In this document: positions 1 to 62,111 of the stretch, piece by piece
Position numbering within the stretch: the stretch's first letter is position 1
How the letters are laid out: each line of letters opens with the position of its first letter
DNA from: Paenibacillaceae bacterium ZCTH02-B3
GTDB taxonomy: Bacteria > Bacillota > Bacilli > Paenibacillales > Paenibacillaceae
Reading direction: 5' to 3'
Length of the DNA: 64,000 nt
Assembly (NCBI GenBank): GCA_002159065.1
Contig: LZRV01000066.1
Coordinates: forward strand, 1 to 64,000
Made by a program: the position numbers and the translations under genes
The notes under the pieces: generated by a model
Database searches by the model: none
The model's input: the letters and a program-made list of their open reading frames with translations, nothing else
Told to the model about the DNA's origin: nothing

Positions 1-127
1 GCGTTTGCCTCCGGCTTCCTTCAGATCCCGCCTCGCGGCAGGCACCCTTGCCTTTGGCTAATGGTAGGCGCTCGCCAGCCCCCATTCCGGACTTTCACCG
101 TAGAGATGACGCCCATGCTGGGCGTAC
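1..127 (-). mobile_element. 5' end of a group IIC intron (partial, runs off the window)
   Basis: Read on the minus strand, the segment opens with GUACGCCCAGCAUGGGCG and continues with GGUGAAAGUCC, UUAGCC, AAGGGUG and AUCUGAAGGAAGC. The order and spacing match the beginning of domain I of bacterial group IIC introns such as the Oceanobacillus iheyensis intron. The first base lies directly downstream of the hairpin at 131-165, and insertion behind intrinsic terminator stems is the known target preference of class C introns. The reverse transcriptase and 3' domains would lie left of base 1 and cannot be seen, so intactness is unknown. Family assignment is by recalled sequence pattern, without a covariance search. 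Confidence 0.8.
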
Positions 128-56942: not shown

Positions 56943-58292
56943 ATGCCGATGGACAACGCAACTTCCGCCAAACCGGCCGCCGCGGCGAAGCGCAGGGCGG
57001 GGCTGATCCTCGTTTTGCCGGCCGTCCTGGCGCTTTACACGGCGGTCAACTATTATGTGGGCTGGCACGGCGAGCTCATGCTCCGGGCGCTGGACGCATC
57101 CCGATTTGCCGGGATCTATTGGACGCTGTTCGCCCTGGCGGCTTTCGGCCTGCTCCTCGGAAGGCTGCCGGGCCTGCCCGGCGCCGCGAAGCGCCTGCTC
57201 AAGGTGGCCGGATACTGCCATTTCGGCGTGCTGCAATACGCGCTGCTGCTTCTGCCCCTGGCCGATCTGGCCTATCTCGCGGCAAAACCGTCATCCGCGG
57301 AGCCGGAATCCGTCCGCCGCCTCGTTCTCCTCCTGGGCGGCGCGGTGCTGGCGCTGATGGCGGCCGTGTTCGCGCGGGGCTTCCGGAATGCCCGGTCGCC
57401 GGTCGTGCGCGCCCATGATCTGGAAATCCCGAAACCGGCGGGCCGCATCCGGCGGTTGCACATCGCCGTCGTTTCGGACCTGCATCTGGGCCACCTCGTC
57501 GGCAACCGGCACCTGGACCGCCTCCTGCGGGAAATGAACCGGCTGCGGCCGGATCTCATCCTCCTGGCGGGAGATGTCATCGACGACGACATCGAGCCCT
57601 ACATCCGCAACCGGATGGGCGAACGGTTGAAGCGGCTGCGGGCGCCGCTTGGCGTTTACGCCGTGCTGGGCAACCACGAATACTACAGCGGAAAAATCGA
57701 GGCGTTCGTCCGGGAAATGGCGGATGCGGGCATCACCGTTCTGCGGGACGAGGCGAAGCTGGTGGGCGGAGCGTTCTACGTCGTCGGGCGCAAGGACAGG
57801 ACCGCGGAATCCGCCGACCCGGAAGGCCGCAAACCCGTCGCTTCGCTGGTCGCGCCGCTGGATGCGGCAAAGCCGATCCTGGTCATGGACCATCAGCCGA
57901 CGTCGTACGGCGAAGCGGAAGCGGCCGGAGCCGACCTCATGATTTCCGGCCATACGCACCGCGGGCAGATGGCCCCCAACCACTGGATCACACGCCGCCT
58001 CTTCGAACTGGACTGGGGCTACAAGCGGAAGGGAAACATGCACGCCGTCGTCTCCAGCGGCTTCGGCACCTGGGGCCCTCCGCTCCGCCTCATGAGCCGT
58101 TCGGAAATCGTGCTGCTTCGCGTCCGCTTTGCGGAACCGTCGGAGGCGGGGGCGGAACATGCGCTTCAAACGGAACCGTCGGAGGCGGGGGCGGAACGCG
58201 CGGTTCAACCGGAAGCCGCAGGCCGGGCGGAACCGTCCGCTCCGGAGAGCGCCCCGGACCCGCAGGCCCCGGAACGCGGCCCGGCCCTATAA
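56943..58292 (+). CDS. Membrane-associated metallophosphoesterase
   Basis: A 449-residue protein with about four N-terminal membrane helices (first at 19-40) and a calcineurin-like phosphoesterase domain. Its metal motifs are SDLHLGH, LLAGDVIDDD, LGNHEYYSG and SGHTHRGQ, as in the YkuE/YaeI group, some of which act on lipid substrates. The C-terminal 55 residues contain two near-identical 13-residue repeats (EPSEAGAEHALQT and EPSEAGAERAVQP). ATG 56943 follows AAGGTGA. It lies 72 bases after the glucosaminidase gene. Confidence 0.85.
   Translation: MPMDNATSAKPAAAAKRRAGLILVLPAVLALYTAVNYYVGWHGELMLRALDASRFAGIYWTLFALAAFGLLLGRLPGLPGAAKRLLKVAGYCHFGVLQYALLLLPLADLAYLAAKPSSAEPESVRRLVLLLGGAVLALMAAVFARGFRNARSPVVRAHDLEIPKPAGRIRRLHIAVVSDLHLGHLVGNRHLDRLLREMNRLRPDLILLAGDVIDDDIEPYIRNRMGERLKRLRAPLGVYAVLGNHEYYSGKIEAFVREMADAGITVLRDEAKLVGGAFYVVGRKDRTAESADPEGRKPVASLVAPLDAAKPILVMDHQPTSYGEAEAAGADLMISGHTHRGQMAPNHWITRRLFELDWGYKRKGNMHAVVSSGFGTWGPPLRLMSRSEIVLLRVRFAEPSEAGAEHALQTEPSEAGAERAVQPEAAGRAEPSAPESAPDPQAPERGPAL
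58135..58212 (+). repeat. Two 39-bp tandem repeats in the phosphoesterase gene tail
   Basis: GAACCGTCGGAGGCGGGGGC recurs after 39 bases with the same following sequence apart from a few changes; it encodes the duplicated 13-residue tail motif. Confidence 0.75.
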
Positions 58293-58385
58293 CACGCCTG
58301 ATCGAAATAAAATTGCGAGATATCTCCAGCCTGAAGGAGAAAAAAGCCAACCAGTCCGGGAAAATTTGCCGCTATTCCGATTTTC

Positions 58386-58412
58386 CGCCCGTTGAAAATC
58401 AACGGGCGTTTT
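58386..58412 (+). terminator. Terminator after the phosphoesterase gene
   Basis: CGCCCGTTGA (58386-58395), 3-base loop, TCAACGGGCG (58399-58408), then TTTTC. Its 5' arm and loop also supply the -35 of the next promoter. Confidence 0.85.
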
Positions 58413-58421
58413 CATTATCAT
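58392..58421 (+). promoter_or_regulatory. Promoter of the CIRCE-controlled sugar operon
   Basis: TTGAAA (58392-58397), 18-base spacer, TATCAT (58416-58421). The predicted start site falls at the left edge of the CIRCE element, the usual geometry for HrcA repression. Confidence 0.6.
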
Positions 58422-58425
58422 GAAA

Positions 58426-58452
58426 ATAGCACTCTTGTCATGAGAGTGCTAA
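58426..58452 (+). promoter_or_regulatory. CIRCE element (HrcA operator)
   Basis: ATAGCACTC-N9-GAGTGCTAA differs from the consensus TTAGCACTC-N9-GAGTGCTAA only in its first base. HrcA binds this inverted repeat to repress groESL and dnaK operons until heat stress. No chaperone gene is in the window; the first gene downstream is the nucleotidyltransferase at 58693. Confidence 0.88.
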
Positions 58453-58637
58453 CATTGTCGATGCAGGAGGAGTTGGCAGGAACCCGGCCACAAGAGGATA
58501 GCAAGCGAAAGTATCCGGATTCCCGAATTCCTTTTCATATCTCCGCGAAGAAGACACGACAGATGCCTTGTCTGCCAGGTGGGGGAAGTTTCCGACGCCC
58601 GATCCTGAGGGGAATCTGTACTGACGTCTTCTTTTTT
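58453..58637 (+). ncRNA. Structured 5' leader ending in an intrinsic terminator (riboswitch-like)
   Basis: Several helices can be drawn. GGAACCCGG (58479-58487) pairs with CCGGATTCC (58515-58523), one mismatch; GGATA pairs with TATCC. TGGCAG (58474-58479) pairs with CTGCCA (58572-58577). The terminator stem is GAAGAAGAC plus ACAGAT (58547-58564) with ATCTGT plus GTCTTCTTT (58614-58634) and a T6 run. The TGGCAG/CTGCCA helix would enclose only one arm of the terminator, so the two states compete. It matches no riboswitch class I can recall; no credible reading frame is present. Confidence 0.55.
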
Positions 58638-58692
58638 CGTTCCGCAGCGCTTGCGAGGAATGGCCGGGAAATATGGAAAGGAGGAGGTATCC

Positions 58693-59736
58693 TTGAAGGC
58701 TTTGTTGCTTGCAGGCGGGCTGGGCACCCGGATGCGCCCGCTGACGGAATCCATGCCCAAGCCGATGGCACCGGTCGGAAACCGACCCTGGCTGGAACAG
58801 CTCGTGTTGCATCTGAAGTCGCAAGGCATCCGGGAATTCGTGATGGCGGTCAAATATTTCCCGGACCGCATCCAGAAGCATTTCGGCGACGGCAGCCGCT
58901 TCGGGGTGCGGATCCGGTACGCGGTCGAGCCGATCCTGTTGGGCACCGCGGGGGCGATCAAGAACGCCGAACCGCTGCTCGGCGACCGTTTCCTGGTGCT
59001 TAACGCGGATATCATCCAGAACGCGCCAATCGAGCCTTTGCTCAGGTTCCATGAAGCGCACGGCGGCGCGGCGACCATCGGACTCGTGGCGGTGGACGAT
59101 CCCACTTCCTACGGGGTGGTGGAACTGGACGCAAGCGGCCGGATCCTCCGTTTCGTGGAAAAGCCTGCAAAGCACGAAGCGCCGTCCAACCTCGTCAACG
59201 CCGGCATCTACATCCTCGAGAAAGAAGTGCTTCGCCATATTCCTTCCGGAAGGGAAGTGTCGATCGAACGGGAGACGTTCCCGCTGCTCATCGCCAGCGG
59301 CGCGGGAGTCTACGGGAAAGCCATCGAAGGCTATTGGATGGACATGGGCACGCGCGACCGGTACCGGAAAGTGCATTGGGATCTTCTGGACCGCACATTC
59401 CGTTTGCCGCTGCAGGGAAAGGAGTGGAAGAAGGGCGTATGGGTCGGCGAGCATACCGTCGTCTCCTCAGACGTCTCGCTCGTGCCGCCGGTGCTCATTG
59501 GCGACCGTGTCCGAATCGGTGAAGGAAGCGTCATCGGCCCCTACGCTGTCATCGGAGACGGTTGCGAAATCGGGCGGGGCGTGCGCGTCACCGAAACGAT
59601 CATGTGGAACGATTGCCGCGTCAGCGACGACGCGTATCTGAAAGGCTGCATTTTCGGCGCCGGTCTGCAGATCGGGCCGCGCCACTTCCTGTACGACGCG
59701 GTGGTCAGCCGCGGCGCGGAGGTGAGGCCAGAATGA
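58693..59736 (+). CDS. Sugar-phosphate nucleotidyltransferase (mannose-1-P guanylyltransferase type)
   Basis: Makes an NDP-sugar donor. TTG 58693 with GGAGGAGGT upstream gives 347 residues. The nucleotide-binding signature LAGGLGTRMRPLT ... PKPM opens the protein, with VLNADII (metal site), GVVELD, FVEKP and NAGIYILEKEVL following. The last 100 residues are a left-handed beta-helix of hexapeptide repeats (VLIGDRVRIGEGSVIGPYAVI). The closest recalled relatives are GDP-mannose pyrophosphorylases; base and sugar are not certain. It overlaps the next gene by 4 bases. Confidence 0.85.
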   Translation: MKALLLAGGLGTRMRPLTESMPKPMAPVGNRPWLEQLVLHLKSQGIREFVMAVKYFPDRIQKHFGDGSRFGVRIRYAVEPILLGTAGAIKNAEPLLGDRFLVLNADIIQNAPIEPLLRFHEAHGGAATIGLVAVDDPTSYGVVELDASGRILRFVEKPAKHEAPSNLVNAGIYILEKEVLRHIPSGREVSIERETFPLLIASGAGVYGKAIEGYWMDMGTRDRYRKVHWDLLDRTFRLPLQGKEWKKGVWVGEHTVVSSDVSLVPPVLIGDRVRIGEGSVIGPYAVIGDGCEIGRGVRVTETIMWNDCRVSDDAYLKGCIFGAGLQIGPRHFLYDAVVSRGAEVRPE

Positions 59737-60932
59737 CCCGCATCGCCTACATTGCGACTTATCCGCCCAAAAAGTGCGGCATCGCCACCTACACCCAACA
59801 CTTGAGGCAAAGCGTCAAAGCGGCAAGGCAATGGAAATTCACCGATACCGTATACGCCTTGACCGACGGCAACGAAAACTATGCGGATGCTTCCGTCCAT
59901 CCGCTGCCCCGCAACGACCGCCAGGCGTACCGGAAAGCCGCGCAGCGGATCAATGCCGGCGATGCCGACGTGGTTTCGCTGCAGCACGAATTCGGCATTT
60001 TCGGCGGCGCGAAAGCCGGCGATTACGTGCTGGAACTCTTGAGCCGGCTTGACAAGCCGGTGGTCACGACGTTTCACACCGTGTTCGAGAAACCGCCTGA
60101 ACCCTATTTTTCCGTTCAGCGGGAAATCGCATCTTTAAGCGACAGGATCGTCGTGATGAACCGGAAAGCGATCCCCCTTCTCATCCGGGCTTTTCATATT
60201 CCGGAGGAAAAAATCGTCTTCATCCCCCACGGTTCTCCGATCCCCGTGCCCCAGAAACGCGCGGAACTGAGAGAAGCCTTCGGCTGGCGGGACCGCAAAG
60301 TGATCATGACCTTCGGCCTGCTCAGCCGGGGGAAGGGGCTGGAACTCATTATCCGCGCGCTGCCGGACGTGATCCGGAAAGTGCCGAACGCGCTGTACGC
60401 CATTCTCGGCCAGACCCATCCGGAAGTGCGCAAGCGGGAAGGCGAATCGTACCGCGAAGAACTCATGGCCTATGTCCGCGAGCTCGGCCTGGAAAACCAT
60501 GTGGCCATGATCGACCGCTATGTGGACGAAAAGGAACTCGTCCATTACCTGACCGCCTGCGATCTCTACGTGACGCCGTATCCGGGCATGCAGCAGATCA
60601 CCAGCGGAACCCTCGCCTACGCCGTCGGCCTCGGCCGTCCGGTGCTCACCACGCCGTACAGCCACGCGCAGGATCTGCTCGGCGAATGGCGGGAAGAATT
60701 GCTGCTTCCTTACGGGGACACGAAGGCCTGGGCGGAGCGCATCGCCGGCATGCTGTCCGATCCGAATCGGATGCGGCTTTGGGAGGAACGCATGCGGACG
60801 ATCGGCGCACAACTGCATTGGCCGCGGGTCGGGGCCGTCCATGCGAAGCTGTTCTTTGAAACGGCGCGGCAAATCCGGTACGAACCCCGCGCGAAGGCGG
60901 CGGGCCAAGCCTTTTCGAAAAAGGAAGTGTGA
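59733..60932 (+). CDS. GT4 family glycosyltransferase
   Basis: A GT-B fold retaining transferase of 399 residues, likely user of the NDP-sugar made by the gene before it. N-terminal YIATYPPKKCGIATYTQHL and LQHEFGIFGGAKAGDY form the acceptor side. The C-terminal half has FGLLSRGKGLELIIRALP, LYVTPYPGMQQITSGTLAYAVGLGRPVLTTPYSHA with the donor-binding E replaced by Q-Q-I-T. No signal or membrane helix. ATG 59733 overlaps the preceding stop. Acceptor unknown. Confidence 0.85.
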   Translation: MTRIAYIATYPPKKCGIATYTQHLRQSVKAARQWKFTDTVYALTDGNENYADASVHPLPRNDRQAYRKAAQRINAGDADVVSLQHEFGIFGGAKAGDYVLELLSRLDKPVVTTFHTVFEKPPEPYFSVQREIASLSDRIVVMNRKAIPLLIRAFHIPEEKIVFIPHGSPIPVPQKRAELREAFGWRDRKVIMTFGLLSRGKGLELIIRALPDVIRKVPNALYAILGQTHPEVRKREGESYREELMAYVRELGLENHVAMIDRYVDEKELVHYLTACDLYVTPYPGMQQITSGTLAYAVGLGRPVLTTPYSHAQDLLGEWREELLLPYGDTKAWAERIAGMLSDPNRMRLWEERMRTIGAQLHWPRVGAVHAKLFFETARQIRYEPRAKAAGQAFSKKEV

Positions 60933-60935
60933 CCC

Positions 60936-62111
60936 ATGGCGTTGAACGTTTCCACGACGGCGCGCGGCGTATCGTTCCGCCACCTCGAACGGATGACGGA
61001 CGACACCGGGCTTTTGGAGCACGCCATGGGATGCATTCCCCGCCGGGAGGAAGGCTACACGACGGACGACAACGCCCGGGCCCTCTGGGCCTGTCTCGAA
61101 TGGCTGGATCTGCTCCCGACGGAGGATTCGGCGCGGCGGGAGACGCTGACGCGTCTGGCGGACACTTACCTGTCCTTTTTGCTGTGGGCGGCAAGGAAAG
61201 ACGGCACGTTTCACAACAATTTTACTTACGGCAGGCAGCCCGAAGGGGAAGAGCCTTCCGAAGATTGCCACGGCCGCGTGCTGTGGACGCTCGTCCTGGC
61301 CGCGGAGCGGTGGCCGGACCATCAACGCGGGGTGGTGGCGGAGACGCTGCTGGCCGCGGCGCTGCCCCATGCGGCGGCAATGAGGTATCCGCGCGGCCAG
61401 TCTCACGCCCTGTTGGCCTTGTGCCGGCTGCTGGAGACGGCGAAGCGGCGGGAAACGGCGGCGGGAAGCGGCGTCTTCGGGGTCAGGGACGCGGATTTTC
61501 CGACCGAAGAACGGCTTGAAGAATGGGCACGCCTGCTGGAGGAGCGCCTGATCCGGGCGTACCGCCGGCATGCCGGCGAGCACTGGCACTGGCCGGAAGA
61601 AAAGATGACCTATGCCAACGGCATCCTGCCGGCGGCCCTTCTGGCGGCCTATCTTCGCTTTGGCCGCCGGGAAACGGGCGAAATCGCCCGGCGGACGCTG
61701 GATTTCCTCATCGAAAAAATGTCCGCGCCGGAAGGCGGAATCCGCCCGATCGGCAACAGGGGCTGGTGCACCCGGGAACATTGCGCCCGCTGGGACCAGC
61801 AGCCCCTTGAAGCGCTGAAGCTGGCTTTGGCTTGCCGATACGGGTGGCTCGCGTTCAGGGACTCCCGATACGCGGAGACCGCCCGGGCTTGCCGGGCCTG
61901 GTTCCACGGCCTCAACGACGCGGGCGTGCCGCTCGTGGACGGAGACGGCGGCTGCTGCGACGGAATCAATGCGGATGGCCCCAACTTCAATCGCGGGGCC
62001 GAATCGACGCTGTCGTATCTGCTCACGGAGGCGATCTGCCTGCGCCTGGAGCGCGAATCCGCCGCCGCGGGCGAGGAGGAACCCGCCGCCCTGGGACGCG
62101 CTCCCGATTGA
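60936..62111 (+). CDS. Six-hairpin (alpha/alpha barrel) glycosidase-like protein
   Basis: A 391-residue cytoplasmic protein with repeated helix pairs. Its marker is CIPRREEGYTTDDNARALWACLEW, seen in six-hairpin domains that accompany or are fused to GT4 transferases. Further blocks are DCHGRVLWTLVLA, NGILPAALLAAYL, GWCTREHCARWDQQPLEALKLALACR and NRGAESTLSYLLTEA. Acidic residues in DDN and GAES could be catalytic. It starts 3 bases after the transferase gene, implying a shared substrate. Whether it is a hydrolase, phosphorylase or non-catalytic partner is unknown. Confidence 0.7.
   Translation: MALNVSTTARGVSFRHLERMTDDTGLLEHAMGCIPRREEGYTTDDNARALWACLEWLDLLPTEDSARRETLTRLADTYLSFLLWAARKDGTFHNNFTYGRQPEGEEPSEDCHGRVLWTLVLAAERWPDHQRGVVAETLLAAALPHAAAMRYPRGQSHALLALCRLLETAKRRETAAGSGVFGVRDADFPTEERLEEWARLLEERLIRAYRRHAGEHWHWPEEKMTYANGILPAALLAAYLRFGRRETGEIARRTLDFLIEKMSAPEGGIRPIGNRGWCTREHCARWDQQPLEALKLALACRYGWLAFRDSRYAETARACRAWFHGLNDAGVPLVDGDGGCCDGINADGPNFNRGAESTLSYLLTEAICLRLERESAAAGEEEPAALGRAPD

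Follow-up and report, generated by a model that had tools for sequence, protein, structure and literature searches.

A probable attenuator-type leader in a predicted HrcA/CIRCE-controlled GDP-mannose operon and covarying leader RNAs in its relatives

Within the window analyzed here, a stretch of 64,000 nucleotides from Paenibacillaceae bacterium ZCTH02-B3, we find what is probably a long 5′ leader of the attenuator type, placed ahead of a GDP-mannose/glycan operon under predicted HrcA/CIRCE control. In the mechanism that we favor, HrcA bound to CIRCE would repress initiation, and heat or a shortage of GroE would be expected to release it. Transcripts started in this way would then meet a terminator-like hairpin ahead of the first gene, which, acting as an attenuator, would let part of the transcription pass. 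We infer HrcA binding, termination, partial read-through and regulation from the DNA sequence; a second signal that alters read-through is possible but unsupported, and the reading of this leader as a riboswitch is not supported. The structured leader RNAs that we observe at the same place in related bacteria are the part that deserves follow-up.

The CIRCE operator and the operon behind it

We inspected positions 58300-58760 letter by letter for the elements claimed in a first-pass annotation of this DNA, and all of them are present, each at or within one base of where it had been placed (Table 1). The annotation had called the region the leader of a CIRCE operon, and this description holds. 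The operator departs from the inverted repeat TTAGCACTC-N9-GAGTGCTAA by a single mismatch and lies directly downstream of the −10 box. In the 3.1-Mb genome there are exactly three CIRCE sites at three or fewer mismatches, and a reversed control pattern gave 0 matches. The remaining two sites precede hrcA and groES (L028 1501-1527 and L173 1501-1527, loci being given here as L numbers and the genes identified from their translations), and the sugar operon is the predicted third HrcA target in this genome.

Table 1. Predicted features of the leader and operon, in window coordinates
Feature	Positions	Strand	Remarks
Intrinsic terminator of the upstream metallophosphoesterase gene	58386..58408	+	Terminator scan; overlaps the −35 box
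Sigma-A-type promoter, TTGAAA-18-TATCAT	58392..58421	+	10/12
CIRCE operator, ATAGCACTC-N9-GAGTGCTAA	58426..58452	.	One mismatch; predicted HrcA site, overlaps the transcription start
Shine-Dalgarno-like GGAGGAG	58464..58472	+	No start codon at suitable spacing; may be a 5′ stabilizer
Proposed antiterminator 5′ arm, TGGCAG	58474..58479	+	Rejected, chance
Terminator-like long hairpin	58547..58634	+	Outer stem 58547-58555/58626-58634; inner ACAGAT/ATCTGT
Proposed antiterminator 3′ arm, CTGCCA	58572..58577	+	Rejected, chance
T6 tract of the terminator-like hairpin	58632..58637	+	
Shine-Dalgarno sequence of the first gene, AAGGAGGAGG	58678..58687	+	
Sugar-1-phosphate nucleotidyltransferase, mannose-1-phosphate guanylyltransferase-like	58693..59736	+	TTG start
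GT4 glycosyltransferase	59733..60932	+	4-base overlap with the nucleotidyltransferase gene
(alpha/alpha)6-barrel glycosidase-like protein	60936..62111	+	

Orthologs of the nucleotidyltransferase were taken from family and order samples and from the best 80 loci found on scanning 84,980 species genomes. Most of the non-Cohnella orthologs examined have an upstream CIRCE at three or fewer mismatches; these operators (0-3 mismatches) lie 73-431 bases before the start codon and occur in Paenibacillus, Brevibacillus, Aneurinibacillus, Thermobacillus, Geobacillus, Parageobacillus, Aeribacillus and Alicyclobacillus. No CIRCE was found upstream of the nucleotidyltransferase gene in most Cohnella orthologs, in L026 or in L162, the last of which is the closest ortholog among the matches listed (73% identity). 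Because CIRCE is kept upstream of the orthologs across genera, the operon is a conserved predicted HrcA target. At two loci (L054 and L189), the operon sits divergently beside groESL, and operon and groESL each have a CIRCE of their own. L026 is a second copy of the nucleotidyltransferase gene in the same genome (G000:C130:2890-3921, 59% identical), with a glycosyltransferase gene behind it.

The operator sequence and its place at the transcription start are those of the known HrcA/CIRCE regulon (groESL and hrcA-grpE-dnaKJ), whereas the genes that follow it here are sugar-nucleotide and glycosyltransferase genes in lieu of chaperones. The leader also differs in form, since it is 267 nt long and carries a terminator, while the hrcA and groES leaders of this genome are short and terminator-less. 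We found no link between HrcA or CIRCE and a mannose or glycosyltransferase operon in the titles and abstracts that searches of an open-access library returned. HrcA is usually viewed as a chaperone regulator. With its predicted operator also at a GDP-mannose/glycan operon in several families of Bacilli, and a conserved structured terminator leader behind it in Paenibacillales and Brevibacillus, a heat-induced glycan and possibly an unlisted leader RNA become open to direct test.

In relatives, the operon comprises genes for a GMP-like nucleotidyltransferase, a GT4 glycosyltransferase, an (alpha/alpha)6 glycosidase-like protein, a phosphomannomutase and a mannose-6-phosphate isomerase, with GH130 or DUF1861 genes nearby. 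This content points to GDP-mannose-based glycan synthesis and turnover. The glycosidase-like protein of the window has no Pfam match; it is kept in the operon among relatives, and its predicted model resembles GH9, GH76, cellobiose 2-epimerase and methylmannose polysaccharide hydrolase.

The leader and its terminator-like hairpin

Between the promoter and the first gene, the leader contains a hairpin followed by a T-run, the arrangement of a terminator-type attenuator. Its arms (58547-58564 and 58614-58634) are paired with predicted probabilities of 0.73-0.99, and the helix score of the stem beside the T-run is equaled in 2 of 100 shuffles. The hairpin is long and imperfect by terminator standards, and its folding energy is only modestly better than that of shuffled sequences (z = −1.5, p = 0.07). 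A promoter scan of 58280-58760 returned a single site on the forward strand, that of Table 1, and none between the hairpin and the first gene. As the hairpin precedes that gene and nothing between the two looks like a second promoter, it would be expected to act as an attenuator.

It is somewhat unlikely, in our estimate, that the segment holds no regulatory RNA at all and that the hairpin is a chance structure, or an mRNA stabilizer or processing element, in a GC-rich spacer. Such an origin would fit the modest p value of the hairpin and the stability of the leader as a whole, which is not unusual against dinucleotide shuffles (z = +0.66 for 58440-58645 and +0.41 for 58453-58637). It would also fit the lack of close relatives: a DNA search of 61 genomes returned just short CIRCE-like or unrelated pieces, the genus of the window being represented by this single genome among those searched. 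The position, polarity and T-run of the hairpin, however, match those of conserved hairpins in relatives, which argues against such an origin.

The annotation had further proposed a possible new class of riboswitch or attenuator, in which a helix between TGGCAG and CTGCCA competes with the terminator. In 71% of shuffles, one or more complementary 6-mers could form a helix of that geometry, the mean being 1.53 such helices per shuffle against the one observed. The minimum free energy structure has −66.3 kcal/mol and a fold forced to contain the helix −54.0 kcal/mol, a cost of 12.3 kcal/mol. The pair probability of the helix is 0.0 in the full transcript, and it is also 0.0 when the transcript stops at 58613, before the 3′ arm of the terminator stem. 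The antiterminator having failed these three tests, the claim of competing folds is unsupported. A search for a shared upstream antiterminator in 17 leaders likewise supported none (combined p = 0.42). The two local hairpins that had been described do have their arms in place (GGAACCCGG at 58479-58487 with CCGGATTCC at 58515-58523, and GGATA at 58496-58500 with TATCC at 58512-58516), but the stability of this part is that of chance (58453-58545, p = 0.27). The two hairpins cannot fully form together, since bases 58515-58516 belong to both the CCGGATTCC arm and the TATCC arm.

In the predicted fold, 58528-58544 and the Shine-Dalgarno sequence of the first gene, which lie on either side of the terminator hairpin, are completely paired. 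This could make the leader an RNA thermometer or translational switch that heat opens, as might suit a heat-shock operon. This duplex is no better than that formed with a shuffled leader (p = 0.47) and few relatives exceed chance, and we regard a thermometer as very unlikely.

The proposal that the leader matches none of the known riboswitch motifs was borne out by an Rfam scan, in which no family reached its gathering threshold in the leader of the window and a relaxed search gave short chance matches only. The leaders of relatives likewise gave chance matches only, and an unrelated T-box lies elsewhere in L058. At the edge of the window (positions 1-42, reverse strand) there is an Rfam match to group II intron D1-D4-3 at 34.5 bits, cut by the window boundary. 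Our leader resembles T-box, SAM, lysine and similar leaders of Bacillota, which are transcription attenuators or terminator riboswitches, in being structured and having a T-run hairpin before the first Shine-Dalgarno sequence; it differs from them in having neither an Rfam match nor a supported antiterminator.

Structured leader RNAs in relatives

Many leaders of the operon in Paenibacillaceae and Brevibacillaceae end in a hairpin and T-run, usually 18-72 nt before the start codon, a spacing that leaves little or no room for a further promoter plus a Shine-Dalgarno sequence. Short leaders with no clear terminator precede the orthologs of Geobacillus, Alicyclobacillus and the P. lactis group, and attenuation is therefore not required for the operon generally.

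Two conserved types of structured RNA are recognizable among the leaders of relatives. Type A (model R1; L054, L055, L056, L058, L060, L152, L154 and L160) is a four-way junction, P1-P4, closed by the terminator stem and with highly conserved loops. Type B (model R2, built on L168, L170/L080, L143 and L153) is a long hairpin with the inner motifs TGAAgTTTTT, TCATG...CATGA and GTTCnCCATG; the model also recovers L006, L059, L140, L162 and the Brevibacillus hairpins L053, L057 and L158. Aligned jointly with MAFFT alone, types B and C were poorly in register, and R2 was used instead. In alignments fitted to their own models, which somewhat favors structure, type A has 56 pairs with 91.5% of cells paired and 15 pairs changed on both sides, and the 11 distinct members of type B have 95% of cells paired and 9 pairs changed on both sides. 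None of 500 shuffles was as good as type A, for which slid controls gave 39-51%; for type B, shuffles gave 4.2 such pairs and 1 of 500 reached the observed count.

Among 399 genomes of the order, R1 matches 5 and R2 matches 9, always at this operon, and the single R2 match outside the ortholog list turned out to be a further instance of the operon whose reading frame is broken. Both types are absent from Rfam 15 and occur in Paenibacillales and Brevibacillus leaders with the terminator just before the gene. They differ from known Bacillota attenuators in holding the structured domain inside the terminator stem. In Paenibacillales and Brevibacillus, the message would also have to pass a conserved, structured terminator leader that is seen nowhere else in the genomes searched.

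The hairpin of the window precedes the same gene at the same place and has the same AAGAAG...CTTCTTTTTT outer stem as types A and B, but it is without their inner conserved motifs. Its score as type A is 8.7 bits (members, 105-162) and as type B 17.0 bits (members used for the model, 77-92; distant members, 27-43), in both cases through the outer stem and T-run only. As a yardstick, the reverse strand gives 8.0 bits with R1 and 12.4 bits with R2 at its CIRCE hairpin. The window hairpin is accordingly not demonstrably a member of either type, its membership being statistically unsupported. We give a tentative minority place to the idea that these leaders hold cis-regulatory RNAs of an undescribed class. 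Types A and B would then have their sensing domain built into the terminator-stem loop, and the window would contain a shortened, diverged member. If true, heat-shock repression would be combined with a second metabolic or thermal signal.

A ligand-sensing riboswitch, in which an aptamer for a sugar nucleotide, a sugar phosphate or a similar compound would switch the terminator by competing folds, finds an argument in the covarying RNAs of relatives, which are fused to the terminator, include the four-way junction of type A with its highly conserved loops and occur only at this operon. We nonetheless consider it quite improbable: the named antiterminator is a chance helix, the 17 leaders yield no consistent one, the window falls outside types A and B, and leader structure varies by lineage (A, B or short), which is unusual for one conserved aptamer. 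What stands of the class proposed in the first-pass annotation is the attenuator anatomy, the absence of an Rfam match and the existence of covarying leader RNAs at the same place in relatives; the competing folds are unsupported, as are a ligand and the presence of an aptamer within the window.

Shine-Dalgarno-like words and small frames after CIRCE

Shine-Dalgarno-like words are enriched after CIRCE: 25 of the 54 leaders have one, compared with 2 of 54 in a reverse-complement control. This count includes close relatives and is not of independent sequences; the window alone is not significant (p = 0.2). Such a word may be followed by a small basic open reading frame, by start-stop codons (ATGTGA in L060 and ATGTAG in L160) or, as in the window, by no frame. 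The small basic frames have a strong Shine-Dalgarno sequence, span about 28-76 codons and are in many cases Arg-rich; they lie at position 73 after the CIRCE start in L054, at about 1636-1735 in L189, and also in L055, L058, L059, L006, L140-L142 and L168. In L060, L160, L154 and L034, the Shine-Dalgarno sequence comes shortly after CIRCE and leads into start-stop or 2-3 codon frames (ATGTGA, ATGTAG, ATGCGGTAG and ATGAGATATTAG), which suggests ribosome parking over a peptide product.

These frames bear on another reading of the hairpin, in which a short HrcA-induced transcript, either a small RNA or the mRNA of a small peptide, has its 3′ end there and the operon is expressed by read-through. 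Several leaders do place a Shine-Dalgarno sequence and a small basic frame between CIRCE and the hairpin, and the peptides of L054, L055, L058 and L189 are alike beyond shuffles. On the other side, no start codon follows the word of the window at the proper spacing, the small frame of L189 lies after the hairpin, some leaders have start-stop codons only, and two close pairs give no sign of purifying selection (L006/L059 compared with an in-frame indel uncorrected). The idea that leader peptides are what is conserved was rejected on these pairs, and we judge a short transcript of this kind unlikely.

The words and small frames fit either a ribosome-binding stabilizer or a fast-evolving leader peptide, as far as sequence can indicate. 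The STAB-SD 5′ stabilizer of Bacillus cry mRNAs is a Shine-Dalgarno-like word near the 5′ end that has no gene. The window shares with it a gene-less word of this kind near the 5′ end, but that word is not significant alone.

Most Cohnella orthologs (L063-L079, L081, L094 and L099-L101) are without CIRCE but carry a terminator of the form GACGCTTCCC..GGGAAGCGTC-T-run, which lies some 100-130 bases ahead of the gene. In several Cohnella species, the upstream region also contains GGAGGTGATTG and a short frame after the terminator.
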